From NCBI RefSeq assembly GCF_001436255.1, contig NZ_AZEI01000083.1, positions 1 through 64,000 on the forward strand: DNA of 64,000 nucleotides, read 5' to 3'. Below are positions 1 through 47,113 of this stretch, one piece after another (the stretch's first letter is position 1; every line of letters begins with the position of its first letter). The position numbers were made by a program, and so were the translations under genes. This DNA comes from Lentilactobacillus rapi DSM 19907 = JCM 15042. GTDB taxonomy: Bacteria > Bacillota > Bacilli > Lactobacillales > Lactobacillaceae. The notes beneath the pieces are model-generated. The model saw only the letters and a list, made by a program, of their open reading frames with translations. It made no database searches and had not been told where the DNA came from.

Positions 1-39
1 AGCGTTTGTCTCAGTTTTCCTACGCCGCTTTTAGAGATC

Positions 40-1313
40 TCAAACAGTTTCTAAGCCGCCAGAAGTGACCAATTGGCGGGGATATTTGAACGGGTAAGCT
101 TGAGCGGCCCACATTTGATGCTGACCGACATCAGTCACGACGATTGCTTCACCATTAGTGGCTTTACCAACGGCGGAATAACTGCTTTTGGATCAAATTG
201 ATCAGTCGTGTGAATGCTGGGTTTGGTCCGCGACTGCTTGCGAATTTCATTAATTGCCAACCAATCTGTACTGGTTCGGTTACCAACCGGCAGTCGGTTC
301 ATGGCTTTTAATGCTGCTTTCGCATCGGCCCTGACTGAAAAGTCTGCCGGTAGAATCTTGTTAAGTTCATTGGTATCAATATCTATGTGCACAATCGTTT
401 TGTCCTTGGCAAACTCACCGGCATTCGGAATGAGCCGATCATCAAACCGGGATCCAATGTTTAACAAGAAATCACAATCCGCGAGTGCCATGTTGGCGCT
501 ATATGTACCGTGCATGCCACCCATTCCCAGAAATAGGGGATCATGGTTGGGGAAACTCCCCAGCCCGAGTAGCGTGGAGACAACTGGCAATTGCCAATTC
601 TGGATGAATCGCTGAAACTCATGCGTGGCACCAGCTGCCGCAACGCCCGCTCCGATCACAACCAGTGGTCGAGATGCTTGCGCCAGCTGATCAAGGGCCG
701 CTTTCAAAGTTGATTTCTGCTTTTGCCGAAGCTTACAACCGCCGGCTTTGTATATTTGATCTGTGTTAGTTGTAAAACTGGTTTTCGCTGCAGAAACATC
801 CTTTGGCAAATCAATGAGCACCGGTCCTTTACGACCACTTTGGGCAATTTTGAACGCTTTGTTCACAGTTGCCTGCAAGTTATTGACGTCTTGAACTTGG
901 AAGTTCGCCTTGGTAATTGGCTTGGAGACCCTGACAATATCTAATTCCTGAAACGCATTGGTTCCAATTGCCGACCGAGTCACCTGACCAGTTAGGACAA
1001 CTAGTGGGACTGAATCCATCATCGCGTCGGCAATCCCGGTGACGACATTTCCGGCTCCGGGACCACTTGTAACGCAGACCACTCCGGTTTTGCCGGTTGT
1101 CTTGGCATAACCTTCTGCGGCGTGGATCGCTCCCTGCTCGTGGCGGGCTAATATGTTATTGAATGATTTGGTGTAAAGCGCATCGTATAACGGTAACACT
1201 GCGCCGCCGGGATAGCCGAACAACGAGTCAACCCCGTTATCCGCCAAAGCATCAATCAAAATTTCCGCACCAGTTTCAACCACCGGCTCAGTTTGGGATT
1301 CCTCTAGTAGCAT
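40..1313 (-). pseudogene. ilvB: acetolactate synthase large subunit, frameshifted and truncated
   Basis: The reading frame from ATG at 1313 (GGAAGTGAG ribosome site 5-13 bases upstream) gives an anabolic acetohydroxyacid synthase N-terminus, with the ThDP glutamate in RHEQGA and the GYPGGAVLPLYDALY signature. The frame runs about 390 residues and stops at 135. A one-base shift near 172-180 restores family sequence ([20 protein letters not shown], then PRQLVTSGG) up to about position 50. There the homology ends and a stop lies at 40-42. The family is usually about 560 residues, so the gene looks both frameshifted and cut short. Bases 1-39 match nothing I recognise. A sequencing error could explain the shift but not the lost 3' end. 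A longer TTG start at 1334 is unlikely because it would overlap the ribosome site. Confidence 0.75.
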
Positions 1314-1718
1314 ATGCGACTCACTTCCTTTCAAAAAATCGTGGCATCACTTCCAATCCGATTTGACCTAATCAATTCATAATTTTTTTGTGATGCTTAT
1401 CAAATTAACACGTCATTTCATAATTAGCAACAGTTAAATTAATACATTCTCATTTTTAACTAATCATTTTGTAATCTTGTGGAATGCTCAAATGCCTGAT
1501 GTGGCTGGAGAATTCCGATGTGAAATGATTATCAAAAAATAATTTTCAGCAAATATTTTGCGGCTAACTCAGCTGCTTTTAATTATTGCCTATTGACAAT
1601 ACTAGCTAAAAAACGAAAGTCAAGCACAAATTTTAATTCTCAAATCCCTAATTTGGCGCATTATATGAAGATTTTCCTTCAAAAAATTTTTTCACATCTG
1701 CAAGTCGCAATTTAAGGC
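1314..1718. other. intergenic region, AT-rich, no gene seen
   Basis: This lies between the divergent acetolactate synthase gene and the T-box promoter. It is AT-rich with no supported gene. A TTGACA at about 1593-1598 has no good -10 partner. The promoter of the leftward gene is presumably here but I cannot place it. Confidence 0.5.
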
Positions 1719-3270: not shown

Positions 3271-4539
3271 ATGTTAGTTGAGAACCAAGTATTAACCAAA
3301 GAAGATGTCCAAAAAGCCTATGAGGTACTGGCGCCAATCGTTAACCATACGCCACTTCAGTACAATTCCTATTTGTCCGAACGTTATCACTGTCAGGTAT
3401 ATTTAAAGCGGGAAGATTTACAGTTGGTCCGATCGTTCAAGCTTCGCGGTGCCTATTACGCCATTTCTCAAGTCCCAGAAGCAACCAGAAAACGCGGGGT
3501 GGTGTGTGCCAGTGCGGGGAATCACGCCCAGGGAGTCGCCTGGACTTGTGCAAAGATGAAAGTTCCCGCCACCATCTTCATGCCAACCACGACGCCGGCT
3601 CAAAAAATCAATCAGGTAAAATACTTTGGTGACAGTAACACCCATATCCAATTGATCGGTGACACCTTCGACGAATGTGCTGCGGCGGCAACCAAATTTT
3701 GTACGACCAATCGCCAAACATTTATTGCCCCCTTCGATGATCCCAATACGATTGCGGGTCAAGGAACGATTGCCGTTGAAGCACTGGCCGATGCTAAAAA
3801 GGCTGATCTTCATATCGATCAGGTCTACGTTGCAATTGGCGGTGGTGGCTTGATCAGTGGCATCAGTACATACGTTAAAGGCAGTGATCCGAGCACTGAA
3901 GTTGTTGGCGTTGAACCGACCGGGGCTTCCTCGATGCAGGCAGCTTTTGATGCGCATAAACCAGTTGCCCTCGCCGAAATTGATACCTTCGTGGACGGAA
4001 CCGCCGTGAAAAAAGTTGGCGGCCTCACCTATCAGACAACTAAACGAAACGTTGATCGCCTCTGCCAAGTTCCCGAAGGCCAAGTCTGCAACACCATCTT
4101 AGATTTATATACCAAATCAGCAATTGTTGCGGAACCAGCAGGCGCGCTCAGCATTGCCGCCTTGGAACTCAATCAGGAACAAATTGCCGGTAAAACCGTG
4201 GTTTGTGTTCTCTCCGGTGGAAACAATGACATCAACCGGATGCAGGAAATTGAAGAACGTTCCCTTATCTACAATCAGCAGCAGCTTTATTACATCGTGA
4301 ATTTTGCTCAACGCGCTGGTGCCCTCCGTCAGTTTGTCAACGAAATCCTAAATCCCGATGACGATATCACCAAATTTGAGTACACCAAAAAAGTCAATAG
4401 CGGCTCAGGACCAGTTTTAATCGGGATTCGGTTGGGCCAATCCAAGAATCTGGCTGGTCTGGTGGATCGATTAAAGCAATTTGACCCGAACTACATCAAC
4501 CTGCAGGAAAACCAGATGTTATACCGAATGCTGGTTTAA
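3271..4539 (+). CDS. ilvA: threonine dehydratase (threonine ammonia-lyase)
   Basis: This PLP enzyme deaminates threonine to 2-oxobutyrate, the first step toward isoleucine. The PLP lysine is in VRSFKLRGAYY (residues about 48-58). The glycine-rich phosphate loop GGGGLISG and the late SGGNND motif are present. At 422 residues it is the short form, with one C-terminal ACT-like regulatory segment (about 330-420), so isoleucine feedback is likely but not proven. The start ATG follows AGAAAGGAAATG with good spacing. It lies after a terminator-like hairpin and three repeats, and I see no promoter in the 60 bases between hairpin and start. The next transcript to the right carries ilvD. Confidence 0.95.
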   Translation: MLVENQVLTKEDVQKAYEVLAPIVNHTPLQYNSYLSERYHCQVYLKREDLQLVRSFKLRGAYYAISQVPEATRKRGVVCASAGNHAQGVAWTCAKMKVPATIFMPTTTPAQKINQVKYFGDSNTHIQLIGDTFDECAAAATKFCTTNRQTFIAPFDDPNTIAGQGTIAVEALADAKKADLHIDQVYVAIGGGGLISGISTYVKGSDPSTEVVGVEPTGASSMQAAFDAHKPVALAEIDTFVDGTAVKKVGGLTYQTTKRNVDRLCQVPEGQVCNTILDLYTKSAIVAEPAGALSIAALELNQEQIAGKTVVCVLSGGNNDINRMQEIEERSLIYNQQQLYYIVNFAQRAGALRQFVNEILNPDDDITKFEYTKKVNSGSGPVLIGIRLGQSKNLAGLVDRLKQFDPNYINLQENQMLYRMLV

Positions 4540-4805: not shown

Positions 4806-4868
4806 ATGAAAAATACCAACAATTTATTATTACAAATTATTGTCCTCGTCGTGATTGTCATTAAATAG
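4806..4868 (+). CDS. BCAA-rich leader peptide of the ilvD operon
   Basis: The peptide is MKNTNNLLLQIIVLVVIVIK, 20 residues, of which 12 are Leu, Ile or Val, in nearly unbroken runs. A GAAAGGAAG ribosome site lies about 9 bases upstream. The stop codon TAG overlaps the first arm of the downstream RNA switch. By analogy with classical leader-peptide attenuators, ribosome stalling at Leu/Ile/Val codons during starvation should alter folding of 4868-4955 and allow read-through into ilvD. The peptide itself is probably without function once released. The mechanism is inferred from architecture. Confidence 0.85.
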   Translation: MKNTNNLLLQIIVLVVIVIK

Positions 4869-4955
4869 GCGGGTAATTTGTGATTGCCCGCCATCACAGC
4901 GGGCAGCGTTGGTATTCCAGGCCAAGAGCTGTTCAACACAGCTCTTGGCCTTTTT
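4868..4955 (+). promoter_or_regulatory. attenuator of the ilvD operon
   Basis: Arm 1 GGCGGG (4868-4873) can pair with CCCGCC (4887-4892). TGCCCGC (4885-4891) can instead pair with GCGGGCA (4899-4905). TTGG (4909-4912) can pair with CCAA (4922-4925), which is part of the 5' arm of the terminator GGCCAAGAGCTG/CAGCTCTTGGCC (4920-4950) followed by five T. A ribosome stalled in the peptide covers arm 1. Mutually exclusive stems and the U-tract are visible; the order of switching is inferred. Confidence 0.85.
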
Positions 4956-5016
4956 CTATCTTTGATTTCAGTTAGTTGAAAAGATCAAAAGTACATAAGA
5001 AAGAGGATGAGGTTAC

Positions 5017-6765
5017 ATGTCAGATACACTAGATTTTAATGCAGAAGGCGACGGCATCAACAAACGGAGTGACAAAATCAAAGTTGGTGTCGACCAAGCA
5101 CCCGCAAAGAGCCTACTTTACGCAACTGGACGGGTTAAGAACGAACGGGACATGAAAAAGCCGTTCATTGCCATTTGTAATTCCTATATTGAAATTGTTC
5201 CTGGCCATATCCATTTGCGCAAGTTAGCCGATATCGCCAAACGCGCCATTCGTGAAGCTGGCGGCATTCCGTTTGAATTTAACACGATCGGGGTTGACGA
5301 TGGGATCGCAATGGGCCACGTTGGCATGCGTTATTCATTACCAAGTCGGGAAATCATCGCAGATTCTGCTGAAACGGTGATTAACGCCCATTGGTTTGAC
5401 GGCGTCTTATTCATGCCAAACTGTGACAAGATCACACCAGGAATGTTAATGGCTGCCGCAAGAACCAACGTCCCATCAGTCTTCGTTTCCGGCGGCCCCA
5501 TGAGAGCCGGAGTTGATCCTAAAGGTCGGGCAACCACCCTTTCAACCATGTTTGAAGCCGTTGGTGCTTTCAAGGGTGGCAAGATTTCCAAAGACGACCT
5601 GCTGGAATATGAAAAGAATGCCTGTCCGGGCTGTGGTTCATGTGCCGGTATGTTCACGGCCAACTCAATGAACTCCCTAATGGAAGCCTTAGGAGTTGCC
5701 CTTCCTTACAACGGAACAGCCCTTGCCGATTCGGACGAACGGAAGGAATTGGTTAAAAAAGCAGCTAAACAAGTCATGTACATGGTCAAGAACAACATCA
5801 AACCACGTGATCTGATGACCAAGGAAGCTTTTGATGATGCTTACGCTTTGGACATGGCAATGGGCGGCTCAACCAATACAGTGCTTCATGGATTAGCAAT
5901 CGCGCATGAAGCAGGCATCAATTACGATTTGAACGATATCAACAAGATCAGTAAACGGGTTCCATATCTCGCTAAGATCGCCCCATCCTCTCACTGGACC
6001 ATGCAAGACGTCCATGCCGCCGGTGGTATTCCTGCCATCTTAAATGAATTAATCGAAAAAGGCGACGTGCTTCATCCAGATCGCATGACCGTTACTGGCA
6101 AGACCTTACGAGAAAATGTTGCCGGTGCCCATACCAAGAATCCAGAAGTTATCCATACTGTTGATAACGCCTATTCCAAGGTGGGTGGTCTATCCGTCCT
6201 TCATGGCAACATCGCGCAAAACGGTGCCGTTATCAAGGTCGGTGGGGTTGATCCAGAAATCCGTGATAAGGGTAAATTTGTGGGAACGGCAATTTGCTAC
6301 GACTCCCATGATGACGCCGTTGCCGGAATTGATTCTGGTGAAGTCAAACCCGGTCACGTTGTTGTCATTCGCTACGAAGGTCCTAAAGGCGGCCCTGGTA
6401 TGCCAGAAATGTTGAACCCAACTTCAAGTATCGTTGGCCGGGGCTTAGGAAAAGTGGTTGGTTTGATCACCGACGGTCGGTTCTCAGGTGCCAGCCGTGG
6501 GATTTCAGTTGGCCACATTTCACCCGAAGCAGCTGAAGGTGGGAACATCGCCCTCATCAGAAATGGCGACCAGATTACGATTGATTTAAATAATCACGAT
6601 ATTTCAGTTGATATTTCTGACGAAGAATTTGCTGAACGCCGAAAAACTTTACCTAAATTCAAGCCAAAGGTCCGTTCAGGTTACTTAGCTCGCTATGAAG
6701 CCCTCGTTACTTCTGCCAATACCGGTGGTGTGATGAAGAGTTATGAAGAAATGTTTAACGAGTAG
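5017..6765 (+). CDS. ilvD: dihydroxy-acid dehydratase
   Basis: The enzyme converts 2,3-dihydroxy-isovalerate and -methylvalerate to the 2-keto acids of valine/leucine and isoleucine. At 582 residues it has family length. Iron-sulfur cysteines are visible in NCDKITPG (about 125) and [11 protein letters not shown] (about 197-207). Other family motifs are GGSTNTVLH and [17 protein letters not shown] follows GAGGATGAGG. It is the first gene after the BCAA leader peptide and attenuator and precedes a BASS transporter by 34 bases, so the two should be co-transcribed. ilvC, ilvN and leu genes are not in the window, and the ilvB copy here is broken. Confidence 0.97.
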
Positions 6766-44832: not shown

Positions 44833-45209
44833 GTTAGGATAACTCCACGAAACAGGAACTTGTACATAACCCCGCCATTAATCCAAAACCAAGAGAATTG
44901 ACTTGCTACATAGATTAGGACAGCTCCGCAAAGCAATAACCTGCACATAAGCACCTCAACCATAAATCCCCCAAAAGCCGGGAATTTCTTGGCATCATTG
45001 CCGAATGGTGCTCCGCAAAGCAGAAGTTTGCACATAAGCCCCGCCCGACATAAATCCAAAACCAAGAGAATTGACTTGCTACATAGATTAGGACAGCTCC
45101 GCAAAGCAATAACCTGCACATAAGCACCTCAACCATAAATCCCCAAAAGCCGGGAATTTATGGTTGAGGAGACTTATGCTCCGGTTATTAACCGCTTTGC
45201 TGCGCACAC
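44833..45209 (+). repeat. tandem half-copies plus one full hairpin repeat
   Basis: Left halves only start at 44833, 44915 and about 45002. A complete copy is at 45088-45209 (arms AATAACC/GGTTATT and CTCAACCATAAAT/ATTTATGGTTGAG). A stretch of about 88 bases beginning CCAAAACCAAGAGAATTGAC is duplicated with about 169-base spacing. The half near 45002 has GGCATCATTGCCGAATGGTG in place of TTAGGACA. The full copy ends 4 bases from the transporter stop codon. Confidence 0.85.
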
Positions 45210-45213
45210 TACA

Positions 45214-46533
45214 CTACTTTGTATAATCAATTCCCTTAGTTTCCTTAGTAAAGAACAGGGCAATCATTGAAACCACCGCCATGATCGCTAAATAGTAACC
45301 AACGGCATGGATTCCCCACTCTGCAACCAACCAGGAAGCAATCGTTGGGGCGAAAGCTGCTCCGACAATTGCGGACATATTATAAGCAATTCCCGCACCA
45401 GAATAACGCGTGTTAGTTGGGAACAATTCTGGGAGTAATGCCCCCACAGGCCCATAGACGATTCCCATTGCCACAAAACCAACTAGCAAGAAGAAGAGGC
45501 TCCCCCATACATTATGCTGGCCTTGGAAGAAGAATGGGAAGATAAATGCAAAGGCCACGATGACAACCGTTCCGGTTAACAGCACTTTTCGGCGACCAAA
45601 TTTATCAGATAAGATTGAAGAATAAACAATCATCCCGCCAAATGCAATAACGGATCCCATCAATAGTAACAAGAATTCTTTATTATCAAATCCAAGCGCG
45701 GTCGTCGCGTAACTCAATGACCAAGTTGACAATAGGAAGAAGAATGTGTAAGAAACGGCCATTGCCATCGTTCCTTGAAGAACTTGGCGCCAGTTCTTGG
45801 CAAATACTTCAACCAGCGGCGCTTTTTGAACTTCATCACGTTGTTGAGCCAAGCGGAACAATGGGGTCTCCTGCATTCTGCGGCGAACCCAGAGACCAAC
45901 GACAACCAGAATAGCTGAAGCCAGGAACGGAATCCGCCATCCAAATGAGGCCATTTGTGATTGGCTAAGTGTTGATTCCAAGATATAGTACAGCCCATTA
46001 CTAAGGAAGAACCCAATTGGGGCACCCAGCTCGGTAAAGGAACCGAACAATGCGCGTTTACCTTTAGGGGCATTTTCAGTGGCAACTAAAACGGCACCTG
46101 ACCATTCACCGCCCAAGCCGATCCCTTGAATGAAGCGGGCTAAACAGAGTAAAACAATTGAGGCCATCCCGATTGCCTTAAATCCGGGGAGAAATCCGAT
46201 GGCAACCGTTGATAGGCCCATCATTAATAATGAAACAACTAAGGCCCGTTTACGACCTAATTTATCGCCAAAGTGACCAAACAATAATGATCCCAGCGGC
46301 CGAGCCACAAAAGCAACGCCGAAAGTCAGTAAACTCAAAATCATGGCAATCGTTGGTGTTACGTTTGGGAAAAAGACGTTCGGGAAATAAGTTGCTGCGG
46401 CAGTTCCATATGCGTAAAAATCAAAAAATTCAATAGCCGTTCCAATCATTGATGCCATAATAACGGTCTTAATTGGGTCTCTTTCCAGTTTGGTTGCTTT
46501 TGTTGCGGTGTATGTAGTCGGTGTTTCTTCCAT
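45214..46533 (-). CDS. MHS-family metabolite:proton symporter
   Basis: 439 residues, 12 membrane segments. MFS/MHS signatures: FGHFGDKLGRKRAL between helices 2 and 3, RFIQGIGLGGEWSGAVLVATE in helices 4-5, and DKFGRRKVLL in the second half. Members carry proline, betaine, shikimate, citrate or 2-oxoglutarate. ATG 46533 follows AAGGAG by 8 bases. Its leader contains two hairpin repeats and, further up, a BCAA-rich leader peptide with attenuator. A branched-chain amino acid or keto acid substrate is therefore a reasonable inference. A separate promoter nearer the gene cannot be excluded. Confidence 0.9.
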   Translation of the reverse strand: MEETPTTYTATKATKLERDPIKTVIMASMIGTAIEFFDFYAYGTAAATYFPNVFFPNVTPTIAMILSLLTFGVAFVARPLGSLLFGHFGDKLGRKRALVVSLLMMGLSTVAIGFLPGFKAIGMASIVLLCLARFIQGIGLGGEWSGAVLVATENAPKGKRALFGSFTELGAPIGFFLSNGLYYILESTLSQSQMASFGWRIPFLASAILVVVGLWVRRRMQETPLFRLAQQRDEVQKAPLVEVFAKNWRQVLQGTMAMAVSYTFFFLLSTWSLSYATTALGFDNKEFLLLLMGSVIAFGGMIVYSSILSDKFGRRKVLLTGTVVIVAFAFIFPFFFQGQHNVWGSLFFLLVGFVAMGIVYGPVGALLPELFPTNTRYSGAGIAYNMSAIVGAAFAPTIASWLVAEWGIHAVGYYLAIMAVVSMIALFFTKETKGIDYTK

Positions 46534-46550
46534 AAAATTCACTCCTTATT

Positions 46551-46796
46551 TAGTGAGCGGAACAAAGCGGTTATCAATCGGAGTGTAAGTCTCCTCACTT
46601 GAAAATTCACGGGTTGGGAATTTTCGAGGGAGGTGCTTACATGCAGATTGTTGCTTTGCGCAGCTGTCCTTGTTTAGTGAGCGGAACAAAGCGGTTAGAA
46701 ACTGGAGCCTAAGTCTCCTTCTGCAGAAATCCCCGATTTTGGGATTTTTGCAGAAGGTGCTTAGGTGGAAGTTTCTGCTTTGCGCAGCTGTCCTAA
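46551..46796 (-). repeat. two tandem hairpin repeats in the MHS transporter leader
   Basis: Copies 46551-46670 and 46674-46796. Arms GAATTTTC/GAAAATTC in the first, AGAAACT/AGTTTCT and TTCTGCA/TGCAGAA in the second. In the transporter's sense the last copy ends CCGCTCACTAAATA, directly followed by AGGAG. Confidence 0.9.
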
Positions 46797-46898: not shown

Positions 46899-46988
46899 TA
46901 AAAAAACACCAAGGCCTGTTTTGACAGTCCTTGGTGTCTAAACCAATCCTGCCCGCGTCTTGCGGGCATGACAACATTGCCCGCGATC
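46899..46988 (-). promoter_or_regulatory. attenuator upstream of the MHS transporter
   Basis: In minus-strand order: GCGGGCA, a 9-base loop, TGCCCGC, then AAGAC and a second GCGGGCA able to compete for TGCCCGC. Next TTGGT can pair with ACCAA. ACCAA is also in the terminator arm CACCAAGG, which pairs with CCTTGGTG (46936-46929 with 46914-46907... stem ends) followed by seven T. The order of elements is the same as in front of ilvD. Confidence 0.85.
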
Positions 46989-47053
46989 TAAATAATGACG
47001 ACGATCTGGACGGCAATAATATTTAAGTTGAAAGTAAGATTAGTTTTTTTCAT
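46988..47053 (-). CDS. BCAA-rich leader peptide of the MHS transporter transcript
   Basis: 21 residues, MKKTNLTFNLN followed by IIAVQIVVII; 11 residues are Leu, Ile or Val and the C-terminal ten are almost all Ile/Val. AGAGGAAA lies about 6 bases before ATG. The stop TAG sits 3 bases before the first GCGGGC arm. It parallels the leader at 4806-4868 in length, N-terminal MK..TN and position relative to the stems. Ribosome stalling at Ile/Val codons is the presumed sensor. Confidence 0.85.
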   Translation of the reverse strand: MKKTNLTFNLNIIAVQIVVII

Positions 47054-47084
47054 GTCGATTTCCTCTTTTCATGGGTTGAATAAG

Positions 47085-47113
47085 ATATTATCATGTTGAT
47101 TATGAAAAGTAAA
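47085..47113 (-). promoter_or_regulatory. promoter of the MHS leader transcript
   Basis: TTTACT (47113-47108), 17 bases, TAATAT (47090-47085), 32 bases before the leader peptide. Confidence 0.6.

Follow-up and report, generated by a model that had tools for sequence, protein, structure and literature searches.

In the his and trp attenuators of Escherichia coli and Salmonella, a cascade of mutually exclusive RNA strands is read out by the position of the ribosome. We know of no pairing in these attenuators between the start of the leader ORF and the linker that precedes the terminator. For branched-chain amino acids (BCAA), the leader of the Listeria monocytogenes ilv-leu operon, Rli60, has been studied with leader-translation mutants, which had reduced transcription of ilvD; in the part of that report available to us, Rli60 is like the leader described here in having a short ORF of BCAA codons upstream of ilvD, with an antiterminator formed by 2:3 and a terminator formed by 3:4 (PMC5864092). 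Unlike our leader, Rli60 is given a four-segment model, and the same part describes neither a helix between the ORF start and the linker nor an MHS target; in mechanism, Rli60 is a relative that has been tested by experiment (PMC5864092). The ilvD attenuator of Staphylococcus aureus likewise places a BCAA-rich peptide and a terminator before ilvD in the Bacillota, but its peptide is Leu-rich, and the proposed antiterminator frees a motif pairing with the U tract and not with the terminator 5' arm; the available text of that source also cites ilv leader-peptide predictions for Lactococcus and Streptococcus (PMC5794164).

The closest precedent for the long-range helix described below (P0) is ilvBNC of Corynebacterium glutamicum, in which an anti-antiterminator lies over the leader start codon and blocks initiation. 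There the element is a hairpin (H1), the mRNA begins one nucleotide from the leader start, the target is ilvBNC, and no 1:2:3 module is described in the excerpts available (PMC11857589). The authors of that study state, in the same excerpts, that AAT and AT are inseparable by conservation, whereas in the Lactobacillaceae leader P0 and the antiterminator are each supported by separate swap tests (PMC11857589). The ilvB-II and ilvB-OMG motifs, as far as the accessible part of their description goes, share the Ile/Leu/Val-rich upstream ORF, and ilvB-II also has a terminator and an antiterminator; both differ in being tied to ilvB, and ilvB-II comes from Corynebacterium (PMC10272879). Leader peptides have also been reported at hisS in Firmicutes, according to the part of the paper at hand (PMC2965389). 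As far as these partly available sources go, the class of mechanism is already known, and an anti-antiterminator over the leader start has its precedent in Corynebacterium. Among the open-licence papers listed by our literature searches, none describes the leader in Lactobacillaceae or BCAA control of an MHS transporter.

The leader and its transporter

We analyzed a 64,000-nucleotide stretch of Lentilactobacillus rapi DNA (the window). An initial annotation had proposed an attenuator-like leader at 46899-47113, on the minus strand before an MHS-type transporter, and the leader was found as described: a 21-codon ORF ending in Ile/Val, three complementary GC strands, and a U-tailed terminator. 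The peptide, said to end in nearly pure Ile/Val, has these two residues at 8 of its last 10 positions. The claimed order of GCGGGCA, TGCCCGC, GCGGGCA, TTGGT, and an ACCAA-containing terminator was borne out, and the leader of ilvD on the plus strand (4807-4964) has the same order. The features are as follows, those of the transporter leader first.

47085-47113, minus strand: promoter-like site, TTTACT (47113-47108), 17 nt, TAATAT (47090-47085), by eye
46988-47053, minus strand: leader peptide ORF MKKTNLTFNLNIIAVQIVVII and stop codon, with GAAAAGAGGA in front; Ile-rich peptides in the same place in relatives
47036-47046, minus strand: P0 5' strand (codons 3-6), partner linker 46940-46950; minimum-energy fold, covariation in 18 leaders, partner swaps
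46978-46984, minus strand: strand 1, GCGGGCA, partner strand 2; sequence, pair counts
46962-46968, minus strand: strand 2, TGCCCGC, partner strand 1 or strand 3; sequence, pair counts
46950-46956, minus strand: strand 3, GCGGGCA, partner strand 2; sequence, pair counts
46940-46950, minus strand: linker AGGATTGGTTT, the 3' strand of P0, containing TTGGT; covariation, swap tests
46942-46952, minus strand: antiterminator 5' arm, GCAG(GA)TTGGT, whose linker bases are common to P0; pair counts, swap test
46924-46935, minus strand: antiterminator 3' arm, ACCAA(GGA)CTGT, which is the terminator 5' arm; pair counts, swap test
46900-46939, minus strand: intrinsic terminator hairpin and T run, containing ACCAA; fold, pair counts
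46543-46794, no strand: tandem intergenic repeat of about 124 nt, two copies, between terminator and transporter
45214-46533, minus strand: MHS-type MFS transporter; comparison with relatives places its start at the MEETP methionine, and the mechanical ORF begins at 46542
4807-4869, plus strand: ilvD leader peptide MKNTNNLLLQIIVLVVIVIK and stop codon; sequence, fold
4870-4964, plus strand: ilvD leader strands 1, 2, and 3, linker, and terminator; sequence, fold, alignment
5017-6765, plus strand: ilvD, dihydroxy-acid dehydratase; PRK00911 819.9 bits, above cut-off
at 3271: ilvA; PRK08639 630.7 bits

Position 47113, the end given by the initial annotation, is by eye the first base of the -35-like hexamer TTTACT, and similar TTTAC(T/A)...TAA(T/G)AT strings were seen by eye at the same position in relatives. 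The promoter-like site is a weak call because the promoter scan did not list it. Downstream, the sigma-70 scan gave a single weak 9/12 minus-strand match at 46862-46833, with 4 sites in total versus 1.2 per shuffle; the transporter may therefore also have a promoter of its own. The leader ORF has a Shine-Dalgarno-like site, and the terminator is absent from the output of a simple terminator scan. No Rfam family, including T-box and other curated leader families, matched the window at its gathering score, and permissive Rfam searches of both leaders gave nothing near one. Four weak permissive matches were rejected; three lie in or near the repeat, and Ricks_sRNA10, over the leader, scored 16.9 bits versus a gathering score of 97.

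"MHS-type" is used here as a label. TIGR00883 is the best NCBIfam model for the transporter (416.6 bits, residues 34-425), and this score is below the cut-off of 443.45. The protein has a major facilitator superfamily domain (PF07690, 129.9 bits; PF00083, 130.2 bits). The transporter start (about 46533) is approximately 370 nt past the terminator because the two 124-nt repeat copies intervene. Tandem intergenic repeats flank the gene on both sides (46543-46794 and 44842-45159), and a 201-base query of the former had 85 matches in the same genome. At the other end of the window, an acetolactate synthase-like ORF of 399 aa (1-1334, minus strand) covers the first two thirds of its family model only; the reading resumes in another frame, indicating either a frameshifted gene or a sequencing error.

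Helix P0 and the pairings that compete with it

The minimum-energy folds of both leaders pair the start of the peptide ORF with the pre-terminator linker. This helix, P0, joins AAACUAAUCU to GGAUUGGUUU in the transporter leader and AAUACCAAC to GUUGGUAUU in the ilvD leader. P0 is a key part of the leader and was absent from the initial annotation, which had listed MK..TN and TTGGT as strings shared by the two leaders. The strings are indeed present in both, but we reinterpret them as the partner strands of one long-range helix, and it is for this reason that they are common to the two leaders. Conservation of the peptide was considered as the cause of MK..TN and rejected: TN varies across loci (TE in L056, PQ in L077, LS in L079, FA in L195) while the pairing is kept, so P0 replaces peptide conservation as the explanation. 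Outside the genus the string changes and the partners still pair, as in CCCAAAAUG/CAUUUUGGG (L077), ACCAAACAG/CUGUUUGGU (L069), and UGCCAUGC/GCAUGGCA (L090).

Among 18 alignable Lentilactobacillus leaders, 95.0% of P0 cells were paired, with two-sided compensatory changes in 4 pairs and 21 cells. None of 500 shuffles reached the paired percentage, the number of cells changed, or the covariation score; the number of pairs changed was reached in 16 and the number of further pair types in 111. Slid versions of P0 were at most 53.1% paired. In partner swaps, each leader's own linker gave a mean of -13.2 kcal/mol versus -8.1 (sd 0.30) for swapped linkers (0 of 10,000; 69 leaders, 64 of them distinct, after L076, L096, and L089 were dropped for a misplaced window). 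The own linker had a median rank of 4 of 64 and was first for 13 leaders only. The MHS-type leaders, including ten divergent ones, gave -13.1 versus -8.13 (sd 0.34; 0 of 10,000) for 53 leaders, 50 distinct, a set without L076, L089, and L208 that retained L064, whose gene is not on the contig and which paired poorly (-1.8). The swap statistics for P0, and those for the antiterminator below, ignore the relatedness of the leaders.

P0, 1:2, and the terminator combined were 94.8% paired in the 18 leaders, with two-sided changes in 51 cells. Neither figure was matched by any of 500 shuffles, and 374 of the 500 matched the number of further pair types. Changes between G-C and A-U were seen in the 1:2 helix. 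The 2:3 helix was 94.4% paired with only one pair showing two-sided changes, and a slid version of it scored slightly above the true one in covariation. The antiterminator was 91.7% paired; its covariation score was 0.066 versus a shuffled mean of 0.080. Within the genus, the case for the antiterminator is one of invariance alone, because it has no two-sided changes and all 500 shuffles reach its score. Across 62 distinct leaders (L076, L096, L089, and L098 left out), the antiterminator arm paired with its own terminator arm at -10.38 versus -8.72 (sd 0.22) for permuted arms, 0 of 10,000. Linkers without CAG carry compensating changes, CCC:GGG in L069, L071, and L073 and CGAC:GUCG in L061 and L062.

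The strand triple was found in 72 of 74 leaders, a set that omits L092, L093, and L100 (judged not leaders) and L044 (contig end, no gene). When the sequences of the strands change, 1:2 and 2:3 are both kept, as in GACGGGC/GCCCGTC/GGCGGGC and TGATAGGT/GCCTATCA/TGATAGGC. Strand 1 starts anywhere from the first base of the stop codon to 5 nt past it or, in a second MHS group and in L061 and L062, 7-8 nt before the stop codon. In this second group (L014, L015, L018, L019, L020), the stop codon is at the end of strand 1, and the peptides consequently end in (H/N)TAG.

These helices overlap. The antiterminator and terminator share the arm at 46924-46935, P0 and the antiterminator share the linker, and P0 directly adjoins 2:3.

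Predicted mechanism and ribosome-masked folding

We interpret the locus as a transcription attenuator, mediated by the ribosome, that controls the MHS-type transporter, belongs to a BCAA regulon found in many Lactobacillaceae, and senses mainly the charging of Ile-tRNA; we put the probability of this reading at roughly 85%. Without a ribosome, P0 and 2:3 would form, the linker would be sequestered and the ORF start covered, and the terminator would fold (OFF). Under Ile shortage, a ribosome stalled on the first Ile/Val codons would mask the P0 5' strand, and strand 1 would take strand 2; the freed linker would then pair with the terminator 5' arm and transcription would continue (ON). When Ile is plentiful, a ribosome at the stop codon would mask strand 1, leaving P0 and 2:3 free to form (OFF). 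P0 would thus be a default-off anti-antiterminator that a stalled ribosome opens.

We modeled this as equilibrium folding of the transcript up to the terminator 5' arm with an assumed 30-nt ribosome footprint, in 64 leaders (L076, L096, L089, L098, L080, L056, L064, and L099 dropped). Mean probabilities of P0 and the antiterminator were 0.81 and 0.06 with no ribosome, 0.22 and 0.39 when the ribosome was stalled on the first Ile/Val codon, and 0.78 and 0.08 when it was at the stop codon. The antiterminator was higher in the stall than in the stop state in 53 of 64 leaders, and 11 did not show this; P0 was higher in the stop than in the stall state in 55 of 64. For the window's own leader, the corresponding values were 0.88 and 0.01, 0.43 and 0.28, and 0.01 and 0.37; here the model does not recover the OFF state expected at the stop codon. 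In several MHS leaders, among them L009, L012, L013, L014, and L018-L020, P0 persists in the stall state because it lies too far from the first Ile/Val codon, and leaders of this kind may need a second ribosome queued behind the first.

These results bear on two other wirings. P0 alone could be the sensor, opened by leader translation through initiation rate or ribosome queueing, with 1:2:3 only tuning stability or pausing. Three observations would fit such a sensor: among the competing helices P0 has the best support, 2:3 shares only a few bases with the antiterminator, and in several leaders the Ile codons are too far from P0. However, 1:2 and 2:3 are both kept despite sequence change and the position of strand 1 at the stop codon is maintained, suggesting that both helices have a function, and we regard a P0-only sensor as unlikely. 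In a classical trp-type wiring, 2:3 itself would be the antiterminator, and stalling would mask strand 1 so that 2:3 forms. Strands 1, 2, and 3 do resemble the classical arrangement, but the helix that shares the terminator 5' arm is linker:CCAA and not 2:3, and P0 is left unexplained. The window leader has its 2:3 helix ending at 46950 and its terminator starting at 46939, which leaves 2:3 unable to block the terminator; geometry rules this helix out as a classical antiterminator, and we consider this wiring quite improbable. The preferred reading, in which P0 and the strand triple act together, makes control of transporter expression by the leader a predicted regulation drawn from sequence.

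The leader family in Lactobacillaceae and beyond

A pattern search for the three strands found five places in 4 of 24 Lentilactobacillus genomes; the reversed control pattern had no matches in the same 24. A transporter protein search gave 15 rows in 11 of the 24 genomes, corresponding to 14 MHS genes when two fragments in G009 are counted as one, and a leader was present before 13 of the 14. One of these, a third leader in the window's own genome (G000:C1), precedes a second MHS gene found by the protein search. The exception, G021, has a transposase-like gene upstream of the MHS gene (by eye); an orphan leader sits at the tip of a different contig. The ilvD search gave 9 rows in 5 of 24 genomes; all 5 orthologues (the ilvD of G005, in two pieces, counted once) had the leader, and the upstream DNA examined for three ilvD-like genes of 43-45% identity had none. 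The resulting 13 MHS and 5 ilvD leaders are the 18 aligned above, and a covariance model, R1, was built from them. The third site is no independent match to R1, because it is among those 18.

R1 gave 88 matches at E ≤ 0.01 in 397 Lactobacillaceae genomes, spread over 63 genomes and 14 of 40 genera. Eighteen were the model's own sources, and 37 of the other 70 had E ≤ 1e-7; the search thus reached far beyond the two sites of the initial annotation. Because the P0 pairs are part of R1, any leader known through R1 alone carries a bias towards P0. Sixty of the 70 further matches were read and 3 of these judged not leaders; the other 10 were weak (E 0.0012-0.0096) and comprised L095, at the same place as L044, and nine rows that were mostly antisense.

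The genes after the 60 read matches, assigned by BLAST, were MHS in 31 and ilvD in 5. A BrnQ-like gene followed in 8 (L079 by profile, TIGR00796 319.3 bits; the others by eye), four within 100 nt and four approximately 815 nt downstream of the leader; in L079 and L085, the two of the latter that were read, a hydratase-like ORF lies between leader and BrnQ-like gene, and one further match has a hydratase-like gene without BrnQ. Two precede an L-2-hydroxyisocaproate dehydrogenase-like (HicDH-like) gene, L065 and, by eye, L066; the best PDB sequence match of L065 was 1HYH, 387 bits versus 184 for the next. One had a PTS-like gene (by eye), three had no close co-directional gene, and two were at contig ends. 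ApbE-like flavin transferase genes lie 323-439 nt after the leader in L057 (by profile) and L060. L090 (G080:C44) has three tandem leaders, before an ORF without a family match, an MFS gene, and an MHS gene in turn, placing two other transporter-like genes in tandem with the MHS gene. The match at L051 (G108:C23, 1501-1651) is strong (E 6e-13); the fetched DNA beyond this leader contains no gene in the same direction, and the leader sits downstream of an ORF resembling the window's PEP-mutase-like ORF at 2049-2771.

The initial annotation had proposed a regulon built from one RNA module and a BCAA or keto acid role for the transporter. The occurrence of the same leader before MHS, ilvD, BrnQ-like, and HicDH-like genes points to such a regulon, and the downstream genes of the family support a probable link to BCAA or keto/hydroxy acids. 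They also bear on the nature of the ORF, which could instead encode a functional small hydrophobic peptide, such as a type I toxin or membrane peptide, with a terminator that merely ends the transcript. The ORF is short and hydrophobic, with its Shine-Dalgarno-like site and its own terminator. Its sequence and length (12 to 25 residues) vary while RNA pairing is kept, however, P0 accounts for the conserved N-terminus, and many of the downstream genes are BCAA-related, making a functional peptide highly improbable.

Searching the 397 genomes for the transporter protein provided a denominator of 64 MHS rows from 58 genomes and 10 genera. A leader was judged present upstream of 55: 13 in Lentilactobacillus, 31 among the R1 matches, and 11 divergent ones, ten with R1 E values of 0.00015 to 0.017 and L207 by eye; L208 was also read. 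It was absent before nine genes (G201, G219, G250, G087, G141, G223, G336, one G349 fragment, and G021). In G336 the contig extends only about 210 nt upstream of the gene, and a different contig carries an orphan leader. In G201, G219, and G250 (L191-L193), the MHS genes have 80-83% identity and keep a promoter-like TTTACTTTT...TATAGT, and no leader was seen.

The last 13 leader residues were Ile 44%, Val 9%, and Leu 4% in 44 MHS leaders, Ile 32%, Val 24%, and Leu 22% in 10 ilvD leaders, and Ile 50% and Leu 2% in BrnQ leaders; eleven loci and the divergent leaders are left out of these counts, and the poorest MHS leader had 4 of 13. This composition suggests that Ile is the main signal for MHS and BrnQ leaders and Ile/Val/Leu for ilvD leaders.

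Across the order, 7 of 395 genomes had an R1 match at E ≤ 0.001. A single one of these, G411 (E = 9e-4, 89 nt), lies outside the family and was judged a chance match; no BCAA-related gene was recognized among its listed ORFs. Of the best 80 of 340 MHS relatives, those examined here, 11 carry strong R1 matches (E ≤ 3.2e-13). All 11 are Lactobacillaceae, and the twelfth locus of that family, L110, had no match. Weak R1 matches lie just upstream of the Eggerthellaceae MHS genes of L122 (E 0.27) and L134 (E 0.5); L134 is Ellagibacter, which we take to be a member of that family. A scan for an Ile/Val/Leu-rich ORF, a strand triple, and a terminator found 6 of 71 loci, namely L107, L117, and L145 (Lactobacillaceae) and L122, L123, and L134 (Eggerthellaceae), versus 0 of 210 control windows. 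L120 is similar by eye. Of the 2 matches that an earlier, stricter triple scan gave in 70 loci, one was a real leader (L145); L117 and the Eggerthellaceae leaders escaped that scan. The Bifidobacterium MHS relatives had no leader by R1 or the strand-triple scan. In five of them (L113, L115, L116, L118, L159), the hydrophobic-ORF scan listed a frame with a GTG start, VQIVVG(V/I)M..., at 350-430 nt upstream, which we took for the putative end of an upstream gene.

The transporter would have a role in BCAA supply, perhaps by bringing a branched-chain amino, keto, or hydroxy acid into the cell. Alternatively, the attenuator could be real and the substrate tied to BCAA only indirectly, as an osmolyte or organic acid might be. 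The best-scoring profiles, none of which reaches its cut-off, are models for generic metabolite/H+ symporters, shikimate, and ProP, a PDB sequence search gave remote matches only, and the module also precedes ApbE-like and other genes. Against this, the same module stands before ilvD, BrnQ-like, and HicDH-like genes, and in Eggerthellaceae MHS relatives follow an Ile-rich attenuator of similar kind. We therefore consider an indirect substrate somewhat unlikely. That the design controls a branched-chain keto/hydroxy-acid transporter with no earlier assignment, and that a similar Ile-rich attenuator controls its Eggerthellaceae relatives, is a possibility we put forward tentatively.

P0 and the antiterminator are each backed by their own partner swaps, so the anti-antiterminator model, which conservation left unsettled in Corynebacterium, becomes directly testable. 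An attenuator before 55 of the 64 MHS genes in 397 Lactobacillaceae genomes provides a regulatory clue to the role of a transporter otherwise placed by family only. For the Lactobacillaceae, these data would make leader-peptide attenuation a multi-gene regulon, and they indicate that RNA pairing can be the reason why a leader peptide keeps its N-terminus.
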